From assembly GCA_900114805.1 (NCBI GenBank), contig FOZN01000004.1, positions 186,001 through 250,000 on the forward strand: a stretch of DNA of 64,000 nt. The letters run 5' to 3'. The translations under genes were made by a program, and so were the position numbers. The notes beneath the pieces are model-generated. The model saw only the letters and a program-made list of their open reading frames with translations. It did no database searches and had not been told where the DNA came from. Each line of letters opens with the position of its first letter. Within the stretch, counting starts at the first letter, position 1. The DNA comes from Agrococcus baldri (GTDB lineage: Bacteria > Actinomycetota > Actinomycetes > Actinomycetales > Microbacteriaceae). Positions 3,116-52,411 of this stretch are shown piece after piece.

Positions 3116-5344
3116 CTACGCGGGCTCGTCACCGAGCTCGAGCAGGCGCCTGAACAGCGACAGCACCTCCTCGGGCAGCAGCGGCTCGGCGACCGTCACG
3201 TCGCACTTCGTCTCGACCGTCACGCGCCACAGCGGGGCATCCGGCAGCGTCTGCCCGCCGAGGTCCTCCAGCACGCCGGAGGCGACGAGCGTGTCGAGCT
3301 GCTGCCGGTCGTCGCCCGGGATGACCTGCAGCTCGAGCACCGCAGCCTGTGTGCGCCCGAGCATGCCACCCGTGCGGGCGACCCTGACCTCGTCGGCGAC
3401 CGGCGCATCCGGCACTGCCTCGTCGGTCACGCCGACTGCCGCCCACGCCTCGCGCACCGCCCGCGTCTCGGCAGCGTCGTCGCCGAAGCGGGCGACGGAT
3501 GCGTCCACGGTCGCGGCCGCGAAGGTCGCGAAGTCGGCGGTGCGGTCCAGGCTGCCGGTGAGGGCGTCCATCCAGATCAGGCCCGGTGCCTCCCACGCGT
3601 TCCCGCCGATCGCGGTGGCGACCAGGTAAAAGGCCTTGTTCGGGATGCCGGAGTTGATGTGCACGCCGCCGAGATCGTCGCGGGTGACGATGAAGTCGCG
3701 CATGTGACCGGGCTGCGGGTCCTTGCCGAGCGCCGGATCGTCGTAGGCGGTGCCGGGCGCCGACATCGAGCGCAGCGCCACGCCCTGCACCGTGTCGGTG
3801 AAGACGCCGGCGCCGATGAGCCAGTCGGCCTGCTCGGCGCTCTGCCGGAGCGCGTGCTGCTTGACGAGCGAGCCGAGCACATCGGCGATCGACTCGTTCA
3901 GGGCACCGGACTGGTCGCGGTAGACGAGGTCGGCGGTGGAGGAGATCACGCCGTGGCCGAGCTCGTGCCCGATCACGTCGACGGCGTTCGTGAAGCCGGC
4001 GAACACCTCGCCGTCGCCGTCGCCGAACACCATGCGCGTGCCGTCCCAGAAGGCGTTCGCGTAGCGGTCGCCGTAGTGCACGGTCGCCAGCAGCGGCATG
4101 CCCGCGCCGTCGAGCGAGTCGCGTCCGAAGGCATCCATCAGCAGCTGCCACGAGGCGCCGAGGCCGTCGTACGCCTGGTTCACGGCGATGTCGTCCGTCG
4201 GCTCTTCGCCCTCGGTGCGCACCGCGCTGCCTGGCAGCGTCGTGGCCCCCTTCGCGTCGCTGATCGTGCGGTGCGGCGCTGGCGGCTCGCCCGGGACGCG
4301 CACGGGGGCGTCGGGTCGCAGGCTCGGCTGTTGCGGCGCGGTGGTCTCGCGACCGGTGCGGATGCCTCGGTCGAGGCCCAGGGTGCGCTCGGCGACGATC
4401 GAGGCCGTCGGGAGGCCCGCGGCGGCGAGCTGCTCGAGCAGGTACGGCGGCACGATGCCCCGGCGGACCGGCGCCGACAGCTCGGTGGCGGCGGGGGCGA
4501 CCGACGGAGTCTCGGCTGCTGGAGCGTCGGTCGCGCGGCGTGCGAGCGCCTGCGCGACGCGCGGGGCGACGATGCTCGACCACAGCCGGTAGCCCGCGGC
4601 CGAGGGGTGGAAGCCGTCGGCCGCGTGCTGCTCGGGCTCGACGATCGCCGGCGTCGGCAGGTGGAGCACGCGCGGATCGTCGGCGGCGATGCGCTGCTGC
4701 ACGTCGTCGAGCGTGCGCGCATGGCCGCCGATGAGCGAGCGGACAGGCTGCGGCAGCCAGACGAAGGTGTCGATCTGGGGCGTGCCCGTGAGGCCGATGA
4801 CGCCGCCGGGGGAGAGGTGCTCGGAGAGCCCGGCGACCAGCCGGCGGATGGATCTCGCGAAGGCCCCGCGGCCGACCAGCTGCAGCGCGTCGTTGGCGCC
4901 GACGAGGAGCAGGATCGCGTCCCACTCGCCCTCCACCTCTGGCAGGTGGCGCTCGAGCACCTGGGCCGTGGTCAAGCCCTCGAGCCCGATGATGCGCCAC
5001 GCGACCGGCCGCTGCTCGCGAGCGGCGAGGCGCTTGCCGGTCTGCAGCACGAGGCCGTCCTCGAGCCGCTCTGCGCCGACGCCCGTGGCGGTGGAGTCGC
5101 CGATCGCGAGCAGGCGCAGCGGAGTGGCGCCGCCGCCCTCGGGTGCCGCGATCGTGCCGTGCCGCTGCCCCTTCGGCTCCGGCAGCCACACGAGGTTGCG
5201 CTGCAGCTGCTTCGCCTGCTGCAGCAGCACCGGTGCCAGGGCGAGTGCGGCCGGCTTCGCGAGGCGGTGGATGGTGCGCTCAGCGGCCTTCGCCGCATCT
5301 GCGGTGAGGCTGCCGAGACGTGCTGCGATCTCCATGCCCCTCAT
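3116..5344 (-). CDS. SGNH esterase - protealysin-like M4 protease - emfourin-like fusion protein
   Basis: One uninterrupted 742-residue frame with three modules. Residues about 75-270 are an SGNH/GDSL hydrolase: GDST (82-85), GAND (149-152), DGFHP (243-247), preceded by a short hydrophobic N-terminal segment (31-41). Residues about 293-645 are a protealysin-type M4 metalloprotease: short propeptide with the PPY motif (299-301), HELGH zinc motif (460-464), zinc Glu in NES (484) and catalytic-type His in GGVHINSG (562). Residues about 652-735 resemble emfourin, the protein inhibitor of protealysin (RVARTGG, then a closing PLLPEEVLSLF helix). Protealysin and emfourin are normally separate adjacent genes. 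No signal peptide is evident. Start ATG 5344 overlaps the stop of the DUF1905 gene (ATGA), so the two are translationally coupled. Confidence 0.9.
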   Translation of the reverse strand: MRGMEIAARLGSLTADAAKAAERTIHRLAKPAALALAPVLLQQAKQLQRNLVWLPEPKGQRHGTIAAPEGGGATPLRLLAIGDSTATGVGAERLEDGLVLQTGKRLAAREQRPVAWRIIGLEGLTTAQVLERHLPEVEGEWDAILLLVGANDALQLVGRGAFARSIRRLVAGLSEHLSPGGVIGLTGTPQIDTFVWLPQPVRSLIGGHARTLDDVQQRIAADDPRVLHLPTPAIVEPEQHAADGFHPSAAGYRLWSSIVAPRVAQALARRATDAPAAETPSVAPAATELSAPVRRGIVPPYLLEQLAAAGLPTASIVAERTLGLDRGIRTGRETTAPQQPSLRPDAPVRVPGEPPAPHRTISDAKGATTLPGSAVRTEGEEPTDDIAVNQAYDGLGASWQLLMDAFGRDSLDGAGMPLLATVHYGDRYANAFWDGTRMVFGDGDGEVFAGFTNAVDVIGHELGHGVISSTADLVYRDQSGALNESIADVLGSLVKQHALRQSAEQADWLIGAGVFTDTVQGVALRSMSAPGTAYDDPALGKDPQPGHMRDFIVTRDDLGGVHINSGIPNKAFYLVATAIGGNAWEAPGLIWMDALTGSLDRTADFATFAAATVDASVARFGDDAAETRAVREAWAAVGVTDEAVPDAPVADEVRVARTGGMLGRTQAAVLELQVIPGDDRQQLDTLVASGVLEDLGGQTLPDAPLWRVTVETKCDVTVAEPLLPEEVLSLFRRLLELGDEPA

Positions 5345-5628
5345 CGTCCCAGACGCATCCGGGCAGTCATCTGATCGCCGACGCCGACCCCCTCGGCGCG
5401 CTGCACCGCCACCTTGACCGGCAGCAGGTAGCCGCCCTCACGCGGGAAGAGCGAGGTGGTGAAGGTCGTGCCGCCGATCACGGCCTGCGCGGGGATGCAG
5501 CCCCAGCCGTAGGTGAGCTCGCTCGCCAGCTCGGCGATCATCGCCGCCTCGTCGGGCGGCACCGGGAGGAAGACGAAGGGCGCAGGGCCGCGCCACTCGA
5601 TCGCGATGCCGGTGAACTCGAACTCCAC
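5341..5628 (-). CDS. DUF1905 domain protein
   Basis: 95-residue protein with the small beta-barrel DUF1905 pattern (EFTG-A-EW near the start, FVFLPVP, WGCIPAQAVIGGTTFTTSLFP, LPVKVAVQRAEG.. GDQMTARM). Function of the family is unknown. Its TGA overlaps the ATG of the esterase-protease-emfourin fusion by four bases, so it is the first gene of that two-gene operon. Confidence 0.8.
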   Translation of the reverse strand: MEFEFTGIAIEWRGPAPFVFLPVPPDEAAMIAELASELTYGWGCIPAQAVIGGTTFTTSLFPREGGYLLPVKVAVQRAEGVGVGDQMTARMRLGR

Positions 5629-5722
5629 GGCGCGAGACTACTCGCGCGCGCCGACACGACCCATGCCAGATGCACAGCCCATCGGGGCAGGTAATGCCTG
5701 TTCGCCGGGTAACCTTGTACCC

Positions 5723-6370
5723 ATGTCGAAGAACGCCGTCATCAGCATCGCCACCGTCGTGGGGGCGATCGTCGTGATCGTCGCCGTCGCCCTCCTGGTG
5801 GTGCGCCCGTGGGAGAGCTCGCAGCCGGTCGCCGGCAGCGACGTGCAGCTGGTCGACGAGAGCACGCACATCCTGGACGACGCGGGGGAGGGCGCCCCGG
5901 TCGTCGTGGAGTTCTTCGACTACGAGTGCCCGTCGTGCGGCCAGTTCCACCCGATCGTGGAGGACCTGCGCGAGCGCTACGAGGGCCAGGTGACCTTCGC
6001 CGTGCGCTACTTCCCGCTGGAGATGCACCCGAACGCGGTGCCCGCCGCTGCTGCCGCCGAGGCTGCCGCGCAGCAGGGTGAGTTCGAGGCGATGCACTCC
6101 ATGCTCTTCGAGCACCAGGCCGAGTGGGCCGGCACCGAGGACGCCGCGGCGACCTTCCGCGGCTACGCCGAGCAGCTCGGCCTCGACCTGGCGGCCTACG
6201 ACGCCGCAGTTGTGGCCGAGGAGACGGCCGACCGCATCGCGCACGACTACGAGGCCGGCATCGCGGCGGGCGTGCAGTCGACCCCGACGTTCTTCGTCGA
6301 CGGTGAGATGGTCGAGCTGCAGAACTACGACGACGTCGAGACGGCGATCCAGCAGGCGCTGGAGCAGTAG
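5723..6370 (+). CDS. DsbA-family thiol-disulfide oxidoreductase, membrane-anchored
   Basis: 215 residues. One N-terminal membrane segment (about 6-27), short linker, then a thioredoxin-fold DsbA domain with CPSC at 69-72 (EFFDYECPSCGQFHP) and the cis-Pro region GVQSTPTFFVDG near the C terminus. Predicted to act outside the membrane on cysteine pairs of exported proteins. Start at ATG 5723: TAACCT lies seven bases upstream and no ribosome-binding site is seen, suggesting a leaderless message. A longer frame from 5513 overlaps DUF1905 on the other strand and is not used. Divergent from DUF1905. Confidence 0.88.
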   Translation: MSKNAVISIATVVGAIVVIVAVALLVVRPWESSQPVAGSDVQLVDESTHILDDAGEGAPVVVEFFDYECPSCGQFHPIVEDLRERYEGQVTFAVRYFPLEMHPNAVPAAAAAEAAAQQGEFEAMHSMLFEHQAEWAGTEDAAATFRGYAEQLGLDLAAYDAAVVAEETADRIAHDYEAGIAAGVQSTPTFFVDGEMVELQNYDDVETAIQQALEQ

Positions 6371-30168: not shown

Positions 30169-30558
30169 TCACAGGTATCGGCATACGTCCTTGGACTGGC
30201 ATTCGGAGGGGTTGGCTTGTGCGGCGTCGTCTCGGAGGTGGGCGACGTTGGTGCGGAGCGCTTGTAGGTCGGCGATCTGCTGGTCGAGGGCAGTGAGGCG
30301 GATGTCGAGGAGCTCCTTGACGTGGTGGCACGGGGCGGTCCCGGCATCTCGAATATCGAGCACCTCGCGGACCTGAGCGAGTGTGAGTCCGGTGGCGCGC
30401 CCTCGCCGGATGAAATCCAGCCTGGCGATGGCATCCTGGTCGTAGTCGCGGTATCCGCTGACGGTCCGTTCGGGGGGCGGCAGCAGTCCGCTGTCCTCGT
30501 AGAACCGCAGGGTCTTGGTGGTCGTGCCAGTGGCCTCGGCGAGTTCACCGATTCGCAT
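30169..30558 (-). CDS. merR: MerR-family metal-responsive regulator
   Basis: 129 residues from ATG 30558: MRIGELAEATGTTTKTLRFYEDSGLLPPPERTVSGYRDY is a MerR helix-turn-helix. Cysteines at 77, 120 and 126 (APCHHVKELL; ECQSKDVCRYL) occupy the positions of the metal-binding Cys triad of mercury MerR, though the last two are closer together (5 between) than in Tn501 MerR (8). Divergent from merA over a MerR-type operator, so a mercury sensor is most likely. Confidence 0.85.
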   Translation of the reverse strand: MRIGELAEATGTTTKTLRFYEDSGLLPPPERTVSGYRDYDQDAIARLDFIRRGRATGLTLAQVREVLDIRDAGTAPCHHVKELLDIRLTALDQQIADLQALRTNVAHLRDDAAQANPSECQSKDVCRYL

Positions 30559-30579
30559 GGCGGTCTCCGCTCTCGGTAC

Positions 30580-30611
30580 TTGACCTTCTACTGCACTGGA
30601 AGGTCCATGGT
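30580..30611 (+). promoter_or_regulatory. MerR-type operator/promoter of merA
   Basis: TTGACC (-35, 30580-30585), a long spacer of 19-20 bases and CATGGT (-10, 30606-30611). The spacer carries the inverted repeat GACCTTC (30582-30588) / GAAGGTC (30599-30605). Over-long spacer plus dyad is the hallmark of MerR-activated promoters. Confidence 0.75.
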
Positions 30612-30651
30612 GGGTGATGGATGGGCGAATACCAAACCGGAGGAGCTTGAG

Positions 30652-32043
30652 ATGAGCGCGGAGTACGACGTTGACCTGGCCGTAATCGGGTCGGGAGGAG
30701 CCGCGATGGCAGCAGGTATCGCGGCCCGCAAGGCGGGCGCCGAGGTCGTACTGATCGAGCGCGGCGCTCTGGGCGGGACCTGTGTCAACGTCGGCTGTAT
30801 TCCGTCCAAGACCCTGCTGGCCGCTGCCGGGACACGGCACAGTGCGCTAACCAACCCGTTCGACGGCGTTCCCACCTCCGCGGACGGCGTGGACCTGGAC
30901 GCCCTGGTGGCGCAGAAAGCTGAGTTGATCGACCGACTCAAGCAGCACAAGTACACCGAGGTCGCTGACGCGTGGGGGTTCCCGCTGATCTCAGGTGAGG
31001 CTCGCTTCGCCGACAAGGACACGGTGGAGGTCGACGGGAAGCCGCTGCGGGCACGGTCCTACGTGATCGCGACCGGTTCGCAGCCCACGGTGCGCGGCAT
31101 CGACGGGATCGAGGATGTGGAGTACTTGACGTCGACGACTGCGATGGAACTGACCGAGGTGCCCGAGTCGCTGGTGATCATCGGTGGCGGCTATGTCGGG
31201 ATGGAGCAGGCCCAGCTGTTCGCGCACCTCGGCGCTCGCGTGACTGTGATCGGGCGCCTGGCGTCGCGCGCAGAGCCGGAGTTGCGCGAGGTCATGGCCG
31301 GTGTGTTCGCCGATGACGGTATCGCCGTGATCGCCGAACACGCGACCGGTGTCGAGACCGCCGAGGAAGGCGGCGTCAGAGTGATCACCGCGTCCGGGAA
31401 CCAGGTGACTGCGGAGCGACTGTTGGTGGCGACCGGCAGGCACTCCGACACCATCGCGTTGGATCTCGCGGCAGCGGGCGTCGACACCGACGCCCGGGGC
31501 TTCGTCGTGATCGACGAACACCAGGCCACGTCCAACCCGCGGGTGTATGCAGCGGGCGACGTTGCGGGCACTCCGCAGTATGTGTACGTCGCCGCCGCCT
31601 CTGGACGGGTCGCTGCCGTCAACGCACTCGGCGACGGTGGGGCAAAGCGTGAGACGGTGGACTACACCGGCCTGCCGGCGGTGATGTTCACCCGCCCACA
31701 GTTGGCCTCGGCAGGGCTCACTGAGAAAGAAGCGCTTGAGCAAGGCCACCCGTGTGCCTGCCGCACTTTGGCGTTGGAGGACGTGCCGAGCGCACTGGTG
31801 AACCGCGACACTCGCGGCGCGCTGAAACTGGTCGCCGACGCACGCACCGGCAAGGTCCTAGGCGTCCACGCGGTCGCTGACGGAGCGGGCGAGATCATGC
31901 TCGCCGCCACTTACGCGATCAAGGCCGAGATGACCGTCGACGACCTCGCCGACACCTGGGCTCCCTACTTGACCATGGCCGAGAGCCTGCGGATCGCCGC
32001 CGGGCTGTTCCGCAACGAACTACCCACCTCCTGCTGTGCCTGA
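30652..32043 (+). CDS. merA: mercuric reductase
   Basis: 463-residue pyridine-nucleotide-disulfide oxidoreductase reducing Hg(II) to Hg(0) with NADPH. FAD motif IGSGGAAMAAGIAA near 12, redox pair C44/C49 in GGTCVNVGCIPSK, second nucleotide motif VIIGGGYVGMEQAQLFAHLG, and the MerA-specific C-terminal CysCys at 461-462 (PTSCCA). The N-terminal heavy-metal-associated domain found in long MerA proteins is missing. ATG 30652 has GGAGGA seven bases upstream. No merT, merP or merB is present, so mercury uptake genes are lacking here. Confidence 0.95.
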   Translation: MSAEYDVDLAVIGSGGAAMAAGIAARKAGAEVVLIERGALGGTCVNVGCIPSKTLLAAAGTRHSALTNPFDGVPTSADGVDLDALVAQKAELIDRLKQHKYTEVADAWGFPLISGEARFADKDTVEVDGKPLRARSYVIATGSQPTVRGIDGIEDVEYLTSTTAMELTEVPESLVIIGGGYVGMEQAQLFAHLGARVTVIGRLASRAEPELREVMAGVFADDGIAVIAEHATGVETAEEGGVRVITASGNQVTAERLLVATGRHSDTIALDLAAAGVDTDARGFVVIDEHQATSNPRVYAAGDVAGTPQYVYVAAASGRVAAVNALGDGGAKRETVDYTGLPAVMFTRPQLASAGLTEKEALEQGHPCACRTLALEDVPSALVNRDTRGALKLVADARTGKVLGVHAVADGAGEIMLAATYAIKAEMTVDDLADTWAPYLTMAESLRIAAGLFRNELPTSCCA

Positions 32044-32140
32044 CCCGACCCGGGCCGCACCGGCCGGGCCGCAGGACGCCGGGTTGGTGCATTGTCTGCA
32101 TCACCTATGAGCGGTGAGCGCTCGTTAAGAGTTCACCACG

Positions 32141-32170
32141 CACGGAAAACGCCCGGTCAGGCGCGAGTTT
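32141..32170. repeat. 30-bp imperfect direct repeat, left copy (cadmium module)
   Basis: Matches 34610-34639 at 26 of 30 bases in the same orientation; shared core GGAAAAC-CCCGGTCAGG. Can fold weakly (GGAAA...TTTCC). It lies in the 273-base gene-free stretch between merA and lspA (32044-32316), which also holds the right 20-bp repeat and a GTGGG/CCCAC dyad near 32213. Confidence 0.65.
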
Positions 32171-32233
32171 CCGCCAGGGCGCGTCGTGGGCGTGAAGTGA
32201 TACCAACGTGCGAGTGGGGGTACTGCCCACCTT

Positions 32234-32253
32234 GACTGGATATCGGGGATATC
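32234..32253. repeat. 20-bp direct repeat, right copy (mer module)
   Basis: Exact copy of 30057-30076, 2177 bases apart. With the left copy it brackets the mercury genes, as expected for a duplicated target or recombination site. Confidence 0.85.
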
Positions 32254-32316
32254 GACTCACGTCGTGAGCTGCCGCGCTCGGACTCGGCCGAGCGCGGCAC
32301 AGCCAGGTCCTGAGGA

Positions 32317-32877
32317 TTAGGACCGCATGGGTTTGCCCTTGAAGGCGAGGGCGATGCAGAGCGTCAGGCCGCCGAACACGAACACGTCTGCGACGTTTCC
32401 GATGAACCAATCGGCGTAGGCGATGAAGTCCACCACGTGGCCTCGGCCGGGACCGGGGTGCCGTACCAGGCGGTCGATGACGTTCCCGAGGCCACCGCCG
32501 AGGATGAGGCCAAGGCTCAGCGCCCAGGGTAGCGACGTGGTTCTCCAGGTGAGCCAAGCCGCGAATAGAGTGCCCGCAGCTGCGAGGGCGGTGATGAGCG
32601 GTGTCGCGCTGGCGCCGAGCGAGAGTGCCGCACCCGGGTTATAGGTGAGTTGCGTTGCGAGCATGTCGCCCAGCAGTGGATGACGCTCGCCCACAGCGAG
32701 GGTCGCCTCTGCCCAGATCTTGCTGAGTTGATCGATCGCCACGGCGGCGAGCGCAGCGAGGTAGCCGAGCAGGGTCACCCTCCACAATCGAGGTGTCGTG
32801 TGTGGCGGGGAGGCGCCTCCCGCGGCGACTGCCGGTGCTGCCGCGGGACTTGGCGAGCTGTTGCCAGTCGTCGACAT
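32317..32877 (-). CDS. lspA: lipoprotein signal peptidase (SPase II), metal-module copy
   Basis: 186 residues. LspA motifs: DQLSK, NPGAALSLG, GGGLGNVIDRL and DFIAYADWFIGNVADVFVFGG, giving the two catalytic aspartates. An extra Ser/Pro/Ala-rich N-terminal extension of about 30 residues precedes the first membrane segment. LspA paralogues are common passengers of Cd/Pb/Zn resistance clusters. ATG overlaps the cadD stop by one base (TAATG). Confidence 0.9.
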   Translation of the reverse strand: MSTTGNSSPSPAAAPAVAAGGASPPHTTPRLWRVTLLGYLAALAAVAIDQLSKIWAEATLAVGERHPLLGDMLATQLTYNPGAALSLGASATPLITALAAAGTLFAAWLTWRTTSLPWALSLGLILGGGLGNVIDRLVRHPGPGRGHVVDFIAYADWFIGNVADVFVFGGLTLCIALAFKGKPMRS

Positions 32878-33485
32878 TAGGCCAGTGCCTCGAAGAGGCG
32901 GGGGACGACGCCGGATTCGATCAGGATGAACAGGCCGAGGCCGATGAACACGGCGGGCACGAGCCAGTGCTCGATGCGCTCGAGAGTCTCGGTGACGGCC
33001 TTGTGCGTGCCGATGACCTTACCGAAGAGGCACCAGACGCTCACCAGAGCGAGGAACACGACGATGGTGATCGTGGTGTCTGCGGGCGAGATGGTTCGGA
33101 ACACCGGCGTGTAGAGGCTGATGTTGTCCGCCCCATTCGCGATGGTGATCCCGGCGATGCCGAGCAGGCCGAGGCCCTTCATCGTTGACTCGTCAGGATC
33201 TGCATCGTCGCGCTCGCGCAGTCCCCGGATGAGTCCGATTACACCGATCAGCAGGGGGAGGAGGCCAAGGAAGCCGACCCACTCGTCCGGGATGATCGTG
33301 AGCCCGAGTGCCGCGACAACGCTGATCGCAACGAGGGTTGCGAATCCCAGGTATTGGCCGAGGACGATCTGCCAGGGTCGAGGCCCGCCGCGGGACGATG
33401 CGAGGAAGAGCACGGTGAGTATGACGATGTCGTCGATGTTGGTTGCCGCGAACATGCCGATCGCGGAGGCAATGGTCGCGAGCAT
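32877..33485 (-). CDS. cadD: CadD-family cadmium resistance transporter
   Basis: 202 residues, about five membrane segments. Opening MFAATNIDDIVILTVLFLA and GITIANGADNISLYTPVF are the conserved acidic/Asn motifs of CadD. Exports or sequesters Cd(II). Start ATG 33485 follows the CDF stop without a gap (TAGATG), with GGAGAAGGA upstream. Confidence 0.88.
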   Translation of the reverse strand: MLATIASAIGMFAATNIDDIVILTVLFLASSRGGPRPWQIVLGQYLGFATLVAISVVAALGLTIIPDEWVGFLGLLPLLIGVIGLIRGLRERDDADPDESTMKGLGLLGIAGITIANGADNISLYTPVFRTISPADTTITIVVFLALVSVWCLFGKVIGTHKAVTETLERIEHWLVPAVFIGLGLFILIESGVVPRLFEALA

Positions 33486-34139
33486 CTAGAGGTCCTTCTC
33501 CTCGAGATCGCCCAGGACCTCGAAGGGCGATTCGACATCGCCGCGCCATGCCTCGACGCCTTCGCGGATCGCGAGTCCCGCGACAACGAGTGCAGCCACG
33601 GAATCTGCCCACATCCAGCCGAAGAGCAGGTTGAGCAACAGGCCGACGAGCACCGTGCCGGACAGGTAGATGCACAGGAGCAATTGCTTGGCGTCCGCCT
33701 GCACGCTGCGCGAACCGAGCTCGCGACCGGTGCGGAACTCGAACCAGGCCAGTGCCGGCATGACGAGCAGGCTGAGGCTGGCGATGCCGATGCCGAGCGG
33801 GCTGTGATCGACCTCTTCCACCCCGGTCAGCGTGAGCACCGCGTCGATGATGACGTACGCGGCGAGCGCGAAGAACGCGATGCCGATCGCGCGGACGGTC
33901 GCCTTCTCCCACCGTTCCGGATCCTTGCGCGTGAACTGCCATGCGACTGCGGCCGCGGAGAGCACCTCGACGATCGAATCGAGCCCGAACCCGATCAGCG
34001 CGGCCGAGGAGGCCATCGAGCCCGCCCAGATCGCGACGATCGCCTCAATGAGGTTGTAGGTGATCGTGAAGCCGACGATGAACCGCACTCGGCGATGCAG
34101 GGTGGTTCGTCGTGCCTCGGTGAGCGTCTCTGCGCTCAT
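33486..34139 (-). CDS. CDF-like cation efflux protein
   Basis: 217 residues, six membrane segments. Metal-site motifs in segment 2 (ALIGFGLDSIVEVLSAAAVAW) and segment 5 (LLFGWMWADSVAALVVAG) match the cation diffusion facilitator fold; the usual long cytoplasmic C-terminal domain is reduced to a short acidic tail. Proton-coupled export of divalent metal, here probably Cd, Pb or Zn. ATG overlaps the cmtR stop (ATGA). Confidence 0.85.
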   Translation of the reverse strand: MSAETLTEARRTTLHRRVRFIVGFTITYNLIEAIVAIWAGSMASSAALIGFGLDSIVEVLSAAAVAWQFTRKDPERWEKATVRAIGIAFFALAAYVIIDAVLTLTGVEEVDHSPLGIGIASLSLLVMPALAWFEFRTGRELGSRSVQADAKQLLLCIYLSGTVLVGLLLNLLFGWMWADSVAALVVAGLAIREGVEAWRGDVESPFEVLGDLEEKDL

Positions 34140-34489
34140 CGGGTCGACTCGCAGCAGCCGGGGACCGGGCACTCCGGATCCAGGCACGGTGCTTGCTCGT
34201 CGACAGCCAACGTCACCTCGACCAGCGCGGTCAGTGCCTGGGCGAGGTGTGGGTCGGCGATCTCGTATCGCGTCTGCCGGCCTTCGGGCTCGGCCACGGC
34301 GATGCCGCAGTCCCGCAAGCAGGCGAGATGGTTCGACACGTTCGAGCGTGTCAGCTCGAGCTCGCGCGCAAGGACAGCGGGGTAATTCGGTCCCTGTAGC
34401 AAGTTCAACAAGATGCGTGAGCGCGTCGGGTCCGCCAGTGCCCGGCCCAGCCGATGCATCACGTCCGGTCGATTCGCAATAGTCAGCAT
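34136..34489 (-). CDS. cmtR: ArsR/SmtB-family Cd(II)/Pb(II) repressor CmtR
   Basis: 117 residues from ATG 34489. Winged helix with ELELTRSNVSNHLACLRDCGIAV; Cys57 and Cys61 in the recognition helix and Cys102 (APCLDP) coincide in number and position with the Cd/Pb ligands of Mycobacterium tuberculosis CmtR. Three extra Cys (107, 112, 113) follow. Represses the cmtR-CDF-cadD-lspA operon. A TATAGT box 6 bases before the ATG makes the message leaderless. Confidence 0.92.
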   Translation of the reverse strand: MLTIANRPDVMHRLGRALADPTRSRILLNLLQGPNYPAVLARELELTRSNVSNHLACLRDCGIAVAEPEGRQTRYEIADPHLAQALTALVEVTLAVDEQAPCLDPECPVPGCCESTR

Positions 34490-34515
34490 GCACTGACTAT
34501 ACAGCAGATGCTGAC
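34482..34515 (-). promoter_or_regulatory. cmtR operator and promoter
   Basis: Perfect 8-base inverted repeat GTCAGCAT (34482-34489) / ATGCTGAC (34508-34515) with an 18-base gap. The gap contains the minus-strand -10 TATAGT (34501-34496); the left arm includes the cmtR ATG. Repressor bound here would block polymerase on its own gene. Confidence 0.7.
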
Positions 34516-46875: not shown

Positions 46876-47604
46876 TCAGCGCGGCGGCTTCGGCAGGGCG
46901 CGCACGCCCGACAGCCCCCACTTGGTGACCGCCCCGATCGTTCCGAGCTCTTCCAGCACGCGCATCTTCGAGCTGCCCACGGCGCGCTCGATGAAGCCGA
47001 CCGGCACCTCTGCGATGGTGCCGCCGGCCTGCGCGACGCGCACCGCCATGGCGATCTGGAAGGCGTAGGCGTCCACCTTGATCGCATCGAGGTCGACCGA
47101 CTCCAGGATGCGGGTGCGGTAGACGCGCAGGCTGCTCGTGAGGTCCTTGACGCCGGTGGAGAGCATCGTGCGCGCGTAGGCGTTGCCGACCTTCGCCGCG
47201 ACGCTGCGCCGCCAGCCCATGTTGCGCACGTCGCTGCCCTCGACGAAGCGGGAGCCGATCACCAGATCCACCCCCGACTGCGAGACGGCCAGCAGCTCAG
47301 GCAGGGCGTCGGCGTCGTAGGAGCCGTCTGCGTCGGTGACGACGACCCGGGTGGCGCCGCGAGACATCGCGAAGCGCATGCCCTCGATGACGGCGGAGCG
47401 GTAGCCGCGCTCGCTGCGGTGGATGACGAGCGTGCCGGCGTCAGCCTTCGCGAGCCGGTCGGCGAGCTCGCCGGTGCCGTCGGGGCTGCCGTCGTCGATG
47501 ATCACGAGCTCGGCGTGCGGCACCGACTGGCGCAGCCGCCCCACCGTGCGCTCCAGGCCCTCGACCTCGTTGTAGGTCGGCACCACGATCATGACGTCAG
47601 GCAT
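46876..47604 (-). CDS. ppm1: polyprenol monophosphomannose synthase
   Basis: 242 residues, GT2 family: MIVVPTYNEVEGLERTV, VIIDDGSPDGTGELAD, VVTDADGSYDADALPELL and the typical RGATRVVVTDADGS loop. Transfers mannose from GDP-mannose to polyprenyl phosphate for lipoglycan and protein mannosylation. ATG overlaps the Lnt stop by eight bases; in mycobacteria the two activities are one fused protein. Confidence 0.9.
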   Translation of the reverse strand: MPDVMIVVPTYNEVEGLERTVGRLRQSVPHAELVIIDDGSPDGTGELADRLAKADAGTLVIHRSERGYRSAVIEGMRFAMSRGATRVVVTDADGSYDADALPELLAVSQSGVDLVIGSRFVEGSDVRNMGWRRSVAAKVGNAYARTMLSTGVKDLTSSLRVYRTRILESVDLDAIKVDAYAFQIAMAVRVAQAGGTIAEVPVGFIERAVGSSKMRVLEELGTIGAVTKWGLSGVRALPKPPR

Positions 47605-49192
47605 CCGCTCGCTCCTTCCGCTGCATTGCCGTGGCGACTCCGAGGCCGGCCAGGGTGAGGACGCTGCCGATGCACAGGGCCCAGTCGATCCATGCTCCCA
47701 GACGGATGCCCGGGGTCACGGTCGTCGACAGCGGCAGGTCGTCGAGCATGGTCCCCGGCTCGTACTGCGGCAGCCGATCGATGATCGTGCCATCGGGACC
47801 GATCATCGCACTCGTGCCGACGGTGGAGATGTTGACGACCGCGCGGCCCGCCTCGACCGCGCGCAGCTGCGCGATCGCGAGCTGCTGGACGTTCTCGGCG
47901 GAGCCCTCGCCGAAGTCGGCGTTGTTCGTGGGCGCGAGGATGATCTGGGCGCCGTGCTCGAGCACCATCTCGCGCGCGAGGTAGTCGTCGATGATGTCGA
48001 AGCAGATCGCCAGCCCCGCGCTGGTGCCCGCGAGGCGGAAGGCGTTCGGGCTCGCCGGGTCGATCGAGAAGTCGCGCGGGATGAGCTCGAGGAACCCGAG
48101 CTGCTCGAGGATGGGCCCGAAGAACTCGCGCTGCGGCAGGTACTCGGCGAACGGCACCGGATGCTGCTTGCGGTACTCGGCCACAGCGCCCTGCCCCGGC
48201 TCGATCTGCAGCAGCGCGTTGTAGGTGTCGTCGCCGTCGCGGGTGACGGTGCCGACCACCAGCGGCGCGTCGAACTCGGTGGCGACGCGGTCGAGCGCCG
48301 CCAGGGTCGCTGGTGTCTCGTCGGCGTAGAACTCGGCGGCGTTCTCGGGCCAGACGAGCAGGTCGAGCTGTGAGCCAGCGAGCTCGCGCGTGGCATCGAC
48401 GTGCTGCTGCAGGATCTGACCCGGCACGCGCGGGGCGAGCAGGCCGGCCTCGCTGTCGCCCTGCACGGCGCCGACGCGCAGGCTGCCGCTCTGCTCGATG
48501 GGGAAGCCGGGGATGGCGACCAGCAGGATGAGGGCGATGGCGCCGAAGGTGAGCCGGCGGCGCAGGATCGTGCGGTGGTGCAGCGCCAGCTGCACCACCA
48601 GCGCCGAGACGGTCGCGATGAGGAAGCTGAGGCCTGCGAAGCCCACCCAGCTGGTCGTGTCGGCGAGCGGGCTGGAGGCCTGCGAGTGCGCGAGCCTGCC
48701 CCAGGCGAAGCCGCCCCACGGCACGGTCGACGAGAGCGATTCCCGCAGCAGCCAGAGGCCGCCCAGCAGCAGGGGCAGCATGACGAACGACCCGATCGGG
48801 CCCGGCATGCGCGGCTCCGCCCAGCGCCAGGCGAGCGCAAGCACGACGCCGCCCATCCCCCACCAGACGGCCATCCATGCCGTCAGGGCGATCAGCGGCA
48901 CGGGCCCGAGGTACACGGAGATCCACTGGATGTGGAGCAGGAAGAAGATCGCACCGGTCGTGAAGCCCAGTCCGAAGGAGGTGCCGATCGTGCGGCCCCG
49001 CAGCGAGAGCAGCGAGAGCGCGACCGCGAGCACGATCAGCGGCCACCAGTCGAACGGCTGGAAGGCGAGCGGCATGATCGCCCCAGCCAGGATGGCTGCT
49101 GCCCACGCGTACGCCGTCGACAGCGGCTGCCGCGCGCGGGTGCGGGCGACGCGCTGCTTGATGCCGGCGCCGGCGAGGGGGTTGACGGTCAC
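47597..49192 (-). CDS. lnt: apolipoprotein N-acyltransferase
   Basis: 531 residues from GTG 49192. About six membrane segments, then a nitrilase-like domain with the Glu-Lys-Cys triad visible in VWPENAAEF, YRKQHPVPF and GLAICFDIID. Adds the third acyl chain to lipoproteins, several of which are encoded in this window. Overlaps the helicase stop (GTGA) and the Ppm1 start. Confidence 0.93.
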   Translation of the reverse strand: MTVNPLAGAGIKQRVARTRARQPLSTAYAWAAAILAGAIMPLAFQPFDWWPLIVLAVALSLLSLRGRTIGTSFGLGFTTGAIFFLLHIQWISVYLGPVPLIALTAWMAVWWGMGGVVLALAWRWAEPRMPGPIGSFVMLPLLLGGLWLLRESLSSTVPWGGFAWGRLAHSQASSPLADTTSWVGFAGLSFLIATVSALVVQLALHHRTILRRRLTFGAIALILLVAIPGFPIEQSGSLRVGAVQGDSEAGLLAPRVPGQILQQHVDATRELAGSQLDLLVWPENAAEFYADETPATLAALDRVATEFDAPLVVGTVTRDGDDTYNALLQIEPGQGAVAEYRKQHPVPFAEYLPQREFFGPILEQLGFLELIPRDFSIDPASPNAFRLAGTSAGLAICFDIIDDYLAREMVLEHGAQIILAPTNNADFGEGSAENVQQLAIAQLRAVEAGRAVVNISTVGTSAMIGPDGTIIDRLPQYEPGTMLDDLPLSTTVTPGIRLGAWIDWALCIGSVLTLAGLGVATAMQRKERADA

Positions 49193-51606
49193 AGCGCGGA
49201 GCCCGATGCGTCGACGACGCCGCGGCGGATGCGCTCCACGGCCTCGCGGGCGTTGCGGGTGAGGCGCTTGGGCGCGACCTGCTCGATCTGCTCGAGCACA
49301 TCGATCGTCTGCTTGGTCCAGCGCACGAAGTCGCCGGCGGCCAGCTCGGTGTCGCGCAGCACGCCGTCGAGCGGGTAGCCGCGCGCCCAGCGGTGCATCG
49401 CGAGGGTGAGCCCCGTCTGCAGCGGCTCGGAGCCCGGCAGCCGGTGCTCCTGCTCGAGGTCGTCGAGCTGTGCCCAGAGCGTGTGCGTCGCATCCAGCGC
49501 GTCGAGGAACGCGCCCTTGGGCAGCATCCGCTGCGGCAGCATGCCGTCGTCTCGGCGGCCCTCGAAGACCAGCGCGCTGGCGAGCGCCGCCAGTGCGGGC
49601 GCGTCCAGCCCGTTCCAGAGACCCTGCCGGATGCTCTCGGCGACCAGCAGGTCGCGCTCGCCGTAGATGCGGCGCAGCACCTCGCCGGCGGGCGAGACGC
49701 GCGAACCCGACTCGGTCTCCGCGACGTAGCCGAGCGTGCGCAGGATCACGGTGATGCGGTCGAAGCGCTCGGCGATCTCGCCCGTGCGGCGGGCGATCTG
49801 CCGCTCGGCCTTCTCGACGTCGCGCTGCAGGCGCCAGTAGCGCTCGCCCCATCGGGCGTGCGACTCGCGCTCCGGGCAGGCATGGCAGGGGTGCTGCTTC
49901 ATGCGGCCGCGCACGCCCTTCAGCTGCTTCTGGATGCGGTCGTGCTCGCTGTGGCCGAGGTTCTTGCGCTGCGCGTCGCGCTCGAGGTCGGCCAGCTCGC
50001 GCCGCAGCGCGGCGTACTCGGAGAAGTCGCCCAGGTGGCAGCGCATCGACTCCTCGTAGCCGGCCAGGCTGGCGCGCTGGTCGACCACCCGCCGCGCCAG
50101 CTGCACGACCGAGCGATCGGCCTGGAACTGCGCGAACGAGGTCTCGAGCACCTCACGGGTGCCGGGCACGCCCAGCCGGTCGATGAGGTTGACGGCCATG
50201 TTGTAGGTGGGCTTGAAGCTCGAGTGCAGCGGGTAGGTGCGGCGGGAGGCGAGCGAGGCGACCTCCACCGGCTGCAGCTTGCCGCTCCAGATCACCACCG
50301 CATGACCCTCGGTGTCGATGCCGCGGCGGCCGGCGCGGCCGGTGAGCTGCGTGTACTCCCCCGGCGTGATGCGCACGCGCGCCTCGCCGTTGAACTTCTC
50401 GAGCTGCTCGAGCACGACGGTGCGGGCGGGCATGTTGATGCCGAGCGCGAGGGTCTCGGTCGCGAAGACCACCTTCAGCAGGCGGGCGCGGAAGAGCTCC
50501 TCCACGACCTCCTTGAACACCGGCAGCAGGCCGGCGTGGTGGGCGGCGACGCCGCGCAGGAGGCCGTCGATCCAGTCGTAGTAGCCCAGCACGCCCAGGT
50601 CGGCGTCGTCCAGCAGCCGCGTGCGCTCGTCGACGATCGCGCGGATCTCGGCGCGATCCTCAGGGCTCGTGAGCCGCACCCCGCCGTCCACGACCTGCTG
50701 CACAGCCGCGTCGCATCCGGCCCGGGAGAAGATGAAGTCGATCGCCGGCAGCATCTCCTGCCGGTCGAGCTGCTCGATCAGCGCCACCCGGTCGACCCGG
50801 GGCGGGCCGCCCCAACCGCCCGGCGCGCCCCGGCGGCCGCCCTTGTCGGGGCGCCTCGAGCGATAGCGGTTGTGCCCGCCCCGGTCGCGGTGGCCGTGCG
50901 CGGCGGAGTCGGCCAGGTCGGTGCCGCGCGCCAGCTGCTGCAGCTCCTTGCTGGGCCGGTGCGTGTCCTCCCCCGCCTTCGAGTCGAACAGATCGACCAG
51001 GCGGCCCTTGATGTGCACGTGCGCGTCCAGCGGCACCGGCCGGTGCTCCGAGACGATCACGCGGGTGTCGCCGCGCACCGCGTCGAGCCAGGCGCCGAAC
51101 TCCTCGGCGTTCGAGACGGTGGCCGAGAGCGAGACCATCCGCACGTGCCGCGGCAGGTGGATGATGACCTCCTCCCACACCGCCCCGCGGAACCGGTCCG
51201 CGAGGTAGTGCACCTCATCCATCACCACGTACTCGAGCTGCGACAGGTCGCGGCCCTCGTAGAGCATGTTGCGCAGCACCTCGGTGGTCATCACCACGAT
51301 GCGGGCATCGCCGTTGATGGAGGTGTCGCCGGTGAGGAGGCCGACGGATGCGCTGCCGTAGACCTCGGTCAGCTCACGGTGCTTCTGGTTCGACAGGGCT
51401 TTCATAGGCGTCGTGTAGAAGACGCGACCGGTCGGCGCCTCCATCGTGAGGTGGATCGCGAACTCGGCCACGACCGTCTTGCCGGCGCCGGTCGGAGCGG
51501 CGACGAGCACGCTCGAGCCCTCCTCGATGGCCTCGCACGCCTCGCGCTGGAAGGGGTCGAGCCCGAACGGCATCGCGCGGGCGAACGCGTCGGTCGCGAT
51601 GGTCAT
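49189..51606 (-). CDS. helY: HelY/Ski2-type DEAD/DEAH RNA helicase
   Basis: 805 residues from ATG 51606. Walker A APTGAGKT (37-44), DEVHYL, LSATV, and QLTGRAGRRGID. Long helical C-terminal region with a CHACPERESHARW cysteine motif and a final DSH-C-like domain. An RNA-remodelling helicase. Sits downstream of tatC as in other actinobacteria. The frame is open to a TTG at 51630, which is less likely as the start. Confidence 0.92.
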   Translation of the reverse strand: MTIATDAFARAMPFGLDPFQREACEAIEEGSSVLVAAPTGAGKTVVAEFAIHLTMEAPTGRVFYTTPMKALSNQKHRELTEVYGSASVGLLTGDTSINGDARIVVMTTEVLRNMLYEGRDLSQLEYVVMDEVHYLADRFRGAVWEEVIIHLPRHVRMVSLSATVSNAEEFGAWLDAVRGDTRVIVSEHRPVPLDAHVHIKGRLVDLFDSKAGEDTHRPSKELQQLARGTDLADSAAHGHRDRGGHNRYRSRRPDKGGRRGAPGGWGGPPRVDRVALIEQLDRQEMLPAIDFIFSRAGCDAAVQQVVDGGVRLTSPEDRAEIRAIVDERTRLLDDADLGVLGYYDWIDGLLRGVAAHHAGLLPVFKEVVEELFRARLLKVVFATETLALGINMPARTVVLEQLEKFNGEARVRITPGEYTQLTGRAGRRGIDTEGHAVVIWSGKLQPVEVASLASRRTYPLHSSFKPTYNMAVNLIDRLGVPGTREVLETSFAQFQADRSVVQLARRVVDQRASLAGYEESMRCHLGDFSEYAALRRELADLERDAQRKNLGHSEHDRIQKQLKGVRGRMKQHPCHACPERESHARWGERYWRLQRDVEKAERQIARRTGEIAERFDRITVILRTLGYVAETESGSRVSPAGEVLRRIYGERDLLVAESIRQGLWNGLDAPALAALASALVFEGRRDDGMLPQRMLPKGAFLDALDATHTLWAQLDDLEQEHRLPGSEPLQTGLTLAMHRWARGYPLDGVLRDTELAAGDFVRWTKQTIDVLEQIEQVAPKRLTRNAREAVERIRRGVVDASGSAL

Positions 51607-51619
51607 CGGGTCACCGCGC

Positions 51620-52411
51620 TCATGCCTCAACCCTGGCAGACTCGCGCTTGGCGCGCCGCCGGTCGACGAGCAGCGCGATGCCGGCGGCCGCGAAGTACAG
51701 CACCACCATCGGCACCGAGATGATGAACATGCTCCACACGTCGCCGGCCGGCGTCACGAAGGCGCCGAACAGCGTGGCCGTCAGGATGGCCCAGCGCCAC
51801 GCGCCCAGGATCGCCCTTCCCGAGACGATGCCGGCAAGGTTCAGGAAGACGACCACGACCGGCAGCGTGTAGGCGACGCCGGCGGCGAAGACGAGCTTGA
51901 GTGAGAAGTCCCAGTAGTCGGTCGCGCCGAGGAAGGCGGTGAAGCCGTCGGGCGTGAAGCCGACGAAGAGGCGGATGATGCGCGGCAGCACGAACCAGCC
52001 GGTCGCGCAGCCGGCGATGAACAGCGGCACGGCTGCGGCGATGAACCCGAACACGTAGCGGCGCTCGATGGTGCGCAGCGCCGGCACGATGAACGCGAGC
52101 AGCTGCCAGATCCAGATCGGGCTCGAGATGATGATGCCCAGCAGGAAGCCGATGCGCATCTGCACGTCGAAGGCCTGCGTGATGTTGGTGATGTTCAGCT
52201 CGACGTCGAGTCCCGCCGCCTGCAGCTCGGCGAGCGGCGAGCTCAGCAGCCGCAGCAGCGGCTCGGCGAGGAAGAAGCCGCCGATGGCGGCCGCCACGAT
52301 CGCGGCACCCGAGATGTAGAAGCGACGCTTGAACTCGCGCAGGTGCTCAGCCAGCCGCATGCGGCCTTCCAGCTTCGACTGCCGCTCAGCCGTGCGCCCC
52401 TTGCGGGCCAT
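51620..52411 (-). CDS. tatC: twin-arginine translocase subunit TatC
   Basis: 263 residues, six membrane segments. LAEHLREFKRRFYISG is the TatC N-terminal signature, followed by the conserved periplasmic and third-segment motifs (SSPIWIWQLLAFIVPAL; ERRYVFGFI). Docking subunit for folded Tat substrates. Three bases after tatA. Confidence 0.95.
   Translation of the reverse strand: MARKGRTAERQSKLEGRMRLAEHLREFKRRFYISGAAIVAAAIGGFFLAEPLLRLLSSPLAELQAAGLDVELNITNITQAFDVQMRIGFLLGIIISSPIWIWQLLAFIVPALRTIERRYVFGFIAAAVPLFIAGCATGWFVLPRIIRLFVGFTPDGFTAFLGATDYWDFSLKLVFAAGVAYTLPVVVVFLNLAGIVSGRAILGAWRWAILTATLFGAFVTPAGDVWSMFIISVPMVVLYFAAAGIALLVDRRRAKRESARVEA

Follow-up and report, generated by a model that had tools for sequence, protein, structure and literature searches.

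The window, a 64,000-nucleotide stretch of the Agrococcus baldri genome, contains on its minus strand an open reading frame (5344..3116) whose translation gave 742 amino acid residues followed by a TGA stop codon. Translation may begin at the ATG of M1 (5344) or at that of M4 (5335), where the alignment of several relatives begins. The original prediction of a single 742-codon frame with three modules, which left the strand unstated, was confirmed, and each motif named in it lies at the residues given there: GDS (82–84), GAND (149–152), DGFHP (243–247), PPY (299–301), HELGH (460–464), E484 and H562. The domain search suggested with it matched the Pfam families Lipase_GDSL_2, Peptidase_M4 and Emfourin, in that order, defining a fusion gene (3116..5344) for an SGNH hydrolase, a protealysin-like M4 protease and an emfourin. 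No Pfam domain beyond the GDSL/SGNH hydrolase, the M4 peptidase and the Emfourin domain was matched in the fusion protein. All parts of the fusion gene described below are on the minus strand.

The SGNH/GDSL hydrolase domain (residues 80–254; 4583..5107) was matched by Lipase_GDSL_2 at 8.1e-17. Its conserved Ser, Asn and Asp-x-x-His blocks are present, with S84, N151, D243 and H246 identical in all 16 aligned Agrococcus rows. A profile search against solved structures gave distant matches to the carboxylesterases 7c23 (1.1e-06) and 1yzf (6.5e-05), which resemble the SGNH part in sequence profile but are distant from it in sequence and whose chains, about 200 residues long, lack a protease. This part of the protein is predicted to be an esterase-like enzyme. 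It is joined to the propeptide by linker 1 (residues 269–292; 4469..4540), conserved neither in length nor in sequence.

A probable protealysin-type propeptide (residues 293 to ~346; 4307..4468) precedes the mature part of the M4 protease (residues ~347–640; 3425..4306), which was matched by Peptidase_M4 at residues 385–467 (5.7e-25) and by Peptidase_M4_C at residues 471–639 (1.3e-50). The HExxH motif and the downstream Glu are present, and H460, E461, H464, E484 and H562 were invariant in all 33 aligned protease rows. The best solved relative was 2vqx (entry titled METALLOPROTEINASE), which we take to be the protealysin precursor of Serratia proteamaculans and which aligned with residues 295–639 (E 8.1e-106), through the propeptide. 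Protealysin removes its own propeptide, and its mature chain, which presumably begins with AKTST, aligns near residue 347 of the fusion protein. The PPY motif and the 2vqx alignment favour a propeptide of the protealysin type; the PLN_propep Pfam model gave no match in the window protein and matched four of the six fused relatives from outside Agrococcus. The fusion protein shares with protealysin the M4 protease and probably the short propeptide of the PPY type but differs in gene arrangement, emfourin being a separate partner in the protealysin operon according to PMC9505478, whereas the Agrococcus chain has an SGNH hydrolase before the propeptide and emfourin after the protease.

Linker 2 (residues 641–654; 3383..3424), of nearly constant length in Agrococcus, leads to the emfourin-like domain (residues 655–734; 3143..3382), which was recognized by Pfam, profile searches and alignment and bears the signature R-T-G-G-M-L-G. 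The Emfourin model (PF20242) matched residues 655–734 at 2.1e-07 with 31.7 bits, against a curated cut-off of 27, and with 36.6 bits in another search, and the C-terminal domain called emfourin-like in the original prediction was thus upheld. It is the weakest domain call in the fusion protein, and relatives score better (to 5.4e-16). A single-sequence search of this part against solved structures gave nothing significant (best E 1); a solved emfourin structure exists. The 80 residues resemble emfourin (M4in, PF20242) in scoring over the cut-off and in keeping the R-x-GG signature; they differ in being fused, emfourin itself being a free protein, and in the loop, which reads GG-M-L-G in six Agrococcus rows and GG-F-A-G in the majority of the other fused and free emfourins read. 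Given this replacement, inhibition by the Agrococcus emfourin may be altered. In Serratia, as PMC9505478 describes, emfourin forms a 1:1 complex with protealysin, binding in the region of the active site; when the emfourin gene is deleted, the amount of the protealysin substrate FtsZ falls.

The fusion protein contains no stretch as hydrophobic as a signal or membrane segment, the best 19-residue mean being 0.93 at the N-terminus and 1.26 overall in a simple mean calculation, which is not a signal-peptide predictor. Since no stretch reaches the hydrophobicity of a membrane anchor, the protein is likely to be cytosolic. The domain arrangement is new and is built from known parts; no report of it was found among the papers listed on emfourin, protealysin, M4in and metalloprotease inhibitors, M4–SGNH fusions and Agrococcus, and its absence from print is not claimed.

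Upstream of the fusion gene lies a DUF1905 gene (5341..5628, minus strand; Pfam 1.6e-20), which overlaps it by the four nucleotides ATGA. A DUF1905 gene directly precedes the SGNH gene in all 17 Agrococcus genomes that have the latter and may therefore be a real operon partner. The ATGA coupling proposed in the original prediction is present in the window gene but is local: it was found in three of the 17 genomes (the window's, G014 and G001), the matched parts being about 45–120 nt apart in the other 14. In the same region of the window (5341–5740) the DUF1905 and DsbA-like genes run in opposite directions, and the listed DsbA frame (5513) overlaps DUF1905 in antisense; translation of DsbA probably starts only at the later ATG (5723). 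Elsewhere in the window, a metal-resistance-like group (30322–34493) comprises a pyridine nucleotide-disulphide oxidoreductase, a signal peptidase II, a Cad transporter and a cation efflux protein, with a third-position GC of 0.73–0.85, below that of most window genes. At 47597–51630 an apolipoprotein N-acyltransferase frame (47597–49852) and a long frame (49189–51630) overlap on one strand, and their starts are doubtful.

A survey for the exact module order, suggested with the original prediction, found a single open frame encoding SGNH hydrolase, protease and emfourin in 14 of the 24 Agrococcus genomes (that of the window among them), and none was seen outside the genus. In G003 (one contig) and G020 (a draft) the SGNH hydrolase and the protease-emfourin are two overlapping genes, and in G002 (one contig) they lie at 0.98 and 2.32 Mb of one chromosome, 1.3 Mb apart. 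Three further genomes (G006, G007 and G013) have the protease-emfourin, and an SGNH match was not found in them. A protease match was not found in G004, which is 100% complete, in G011 and G022, which are 78 and 86% complete, or in G017, a 340-contig draft with an emfourin fragment only. An assembly artefact or a chance frame was ruled out, the open frame being common to the 14 genomes and the two overlapping split cases being coherent two-gene arrangements.

Outside the genus, the searches at three levels, which score the best few candidates per genome and are blind to an unrelated SGNH family, gave no second example. In the order-level search of 297 genomes, 100 matched at E ≤1e-60, including two Agrococcus, and every other row began at residue 228 or later. 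In the phylum-level search of 396 genomes, 28 matched at E ≤1e-90, and the match of the window itself was alone in beginning within the SGNH part. In the family-level search, 244 of 398 genomes matched at E ≤1e-10, and among the matches listed every row from outside Agrococcus began at residue 168 or later. In addition, no related SGNH gene was found at 74 non-Agrococcus protease loci, of which up to 4 kb were read, some being ended by the contig. The SGNH-protease fusion has thus been seen only in Agrococcus, and within this genus it is labile.

The junction sequences reflect the different states. The stop codon of the SGNH gene and the start codon of the protease gene share an ATGA in G003 and G020, where AGGAG lies 10 nt upstream of the protease ATG; the SGNH and protease-emfourin genes look like a translation-coupled pair. 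In the fused gene of G001 the position matching the split junction still has an ATGA, together with an in-frame GTG that is preceded at 9 nt by AGGA, likely a relic start. No ATG, GTG or TTG was found in the protease frame of the window gene within 150 nt before the GIVPP codons, which rules out an internal protease start there; if autocleavage fails, the protease of this gene therefore exists only as a fusion. The first join, measured from W255 to P299, ranges from 22 to 51 residues across Agrococcus; the second, from V637 to R657, is 19–22 residues long in 13 genomes out of 14, the exception being G012 with 33. Over seven pairs, dN/dS was 0.14–0.37 for the SGNH part, 0.06–0.28 for the protease and 0.11–0.38 for emfourin, and purifying selection acts on all three domains; linker 1 gave 0.26 to 2.24, on 4 to 25 codons. 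All three domains are therefore maintained, and the first join is loose.

The protease tree places G003 and G020 immediately outside the group of six that contains the window (supports 91/94 and 96/91), and G003 takes the same position (94/97) in an rpoB tree, from which G011 and G022 (partial) and G019 and G020 (rpoB not found) were left out. The SGNH tree does not resolve the placement of G003 and G020 within the window's eight-member clade, and fused genomes occur outside this clade too. The three states need four state changes. All fused forms as one clade were rejected (p-AU 0.012); G003 and G020 held together were not rejected (p-AU 0.295), and the two together with G002 were borderline (0.046). 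As the groups tested were picked with the tree in view and the 17-member clade has an unresolved base, more than one event is claimed but no direction. On these trees, the SGNH and protease genes appear to have merged and/or separated more than once within Agrococcus.

In G002 the protease half keeps the AAA and TPP-enzyme neighbours of the window gene and the SGNH half keeps DUF1905, DsbA and a symporter, which places the break between the SGNH domain and the protease domain. The separated SGNH gene is immediately followed, at the point of rearrangement, by a DUF222/HNH endonuclease gene (L130:6750-8525). An ORF before the G002 protease was ComF-like in appearance by eye; Pfam gave no family, and this assignment is not claimed. 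At L133, L134 and L135 (in G013, G006 and G007) the protease-emfourin gene is divergent to DsbA and DUF1905, without SGNH and with some shared neighbours in another order.

The second join is of wider occurrence. Among 80 protease loci of named genomes, six of them Agrococcus, emfourin was fused in 17 (11 of them non-Agrococcus), encoded by a separate gene just downstream in 52 and undetected in 11, by a home-made profile that was built from fused copies, so that distant free copies were possibly missed, and with which many free ones score only 1e-4 to 1e-2. Emfourin thus adjoins the protease, fused or just after it, in 69 of the 80 loci; this, the score over the cut-off, the kept signature and the better-scoring relatives ruled out a chance match in the window protein. 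When six fused proteins from outside Agrococcus were put to Pfam, the protease-emfourin fusion was confirmed in all of them (E 1.9e-09 to 5.4e-16). Among the 19 non-Agrococcus loci read at order level (L197–L215), 14 have the emfourin part in the same frame as the protease, at least four of these being identical to loci of another locus set in this analysis. The fusions of Knoellia, Janibacter, Actinotalea, Brevibacterium and others have the same protease-emfourin order in one frame, but no related SGNH hydrolase stands in front and their second linkers are mostly longer than those of Agrococcus. The protease-emfourin join therefore recurs in other actinobacteria and is not specific to this gene. 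In G1014, G878 and G711, which belong to one genus, residues from about 291 to 738 align in the same frame, interrupted by one TAG that presumably falls between protease and emfourin; a single stop would then divide the fused from the separate state.

The original prediction had read the protein as a self-regulated enzyme released by processing, with the protease tethered to its own inhibitor and to an esterase. Part of this holds: the fusion exists and is conserved, and the sequence does encode a protease with emfourin tethered to it. The protease-emfourin join, on the other hand, is not peculiar to this gene, and the esterase join is dispensable, three relatives having the two proteins as overlapping genes or at separate loci. 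It is therefore unlikely that all three parts share an obligatory function.

The best explanation of the whole, to which we assign a probability of about 0.55, is that merged SGNH and protease-emfourin genes encode a cytosolic, polyprotein-like, self-cutting precursor in which emfourin is a tethered inhibitor. An SGNH hydrolase gene would have come to adjoin, on the upstream side, a protealysin-like protease gene already bearing a C-terminal emfourin, an order of events that we infer; the two frames would then have merged, and within Agrococcus merged and/or separated more than once. The cytosolic product would be a precursor of the order SGNH, linker, propeptide, protease, linker, emfourin. 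By analogy with protealysin, the protease would cut off its own propeptide near residue 347, plausibly releasing the SGNH hydrolase as well, to give SGNH with propeptide (~1–346) and protease with emfourin (~347–742). Emfourin, tethered by about 19 residues, would plausibly inhibit in cis (or a neighbouring molecule), the protease being silent until emfourin is displaced or cut, a self-regulation suggested by protealysin biology, and the SGNH hydrolase and the protease would act independently. Against this explanation, a tightly inhibiting tethered domain could block autocleavage, and the PLN_propep model has no match in the window protein. A more general proposal, put forward only tentatively, is that of a self-separating polyprotein in which autocleavage of a propeptide releases an unrelated N-terminal enzyme while the inhibitor stays tethered; the gene pair would repeatedly fuse and separate in one genus because autocleavage makes the join harmless.

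Nearer to the original prediction is a functional three-part enzyme, in which esterase and protease act on one substrate, the fusion is selected for stoichiometry or channelling and emfourin is a built-in brake. The retention of the fusion in 14 of 24 genomes, the catalytic residues in place and the purifying selection are consistent with it, but the separate esterase in G003, G020 and G002, its missing match in G006, G007 and G013, the non-conserved linker 1 and the 74 non-Agrococcus loci, read for up to 4 kb and in some cases ended by the contig, with no related SGNH gene make it unlikely. Rather improbable as well is a near-neutral accident, a stop lost between overlapping genes with no processing and both enzymes working as fused domains: a join gained and/or lost more than once, the likely relic start in G001 and the variable linker would fit, but protealysin normally removes its own propeptide and a chain that stays uncut would be unusual. 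A toxin-immunity-like pair, with the protease delivered to rival cells, emfourin as immunity and the SGNH hydrolase as a second toxic enzyme or passenger, follows a role proposed for Serratia protealysin and emfourin in PMC9505478 but is highly improbable, as the protein has no signal-like hydrophobic stretch and no further domain by Pfam, and a covalently fused immunity protein would travel along and silence the toxin in the target.

In Agrococcus the two proteins form a natural series: they are encoded by distant genes, by ATGA-overlapping genes, by a fusion with a likely relic start and by clean fusions. With this series two questions become testable inside a single genus: does a self-cleaving propeptide tolerate (or invite) fusions at its N-terminus, and does emfourin act in cis? 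The tethered emfourin of other actinobacteria would be a ready source of built-in control of M4 proteases.
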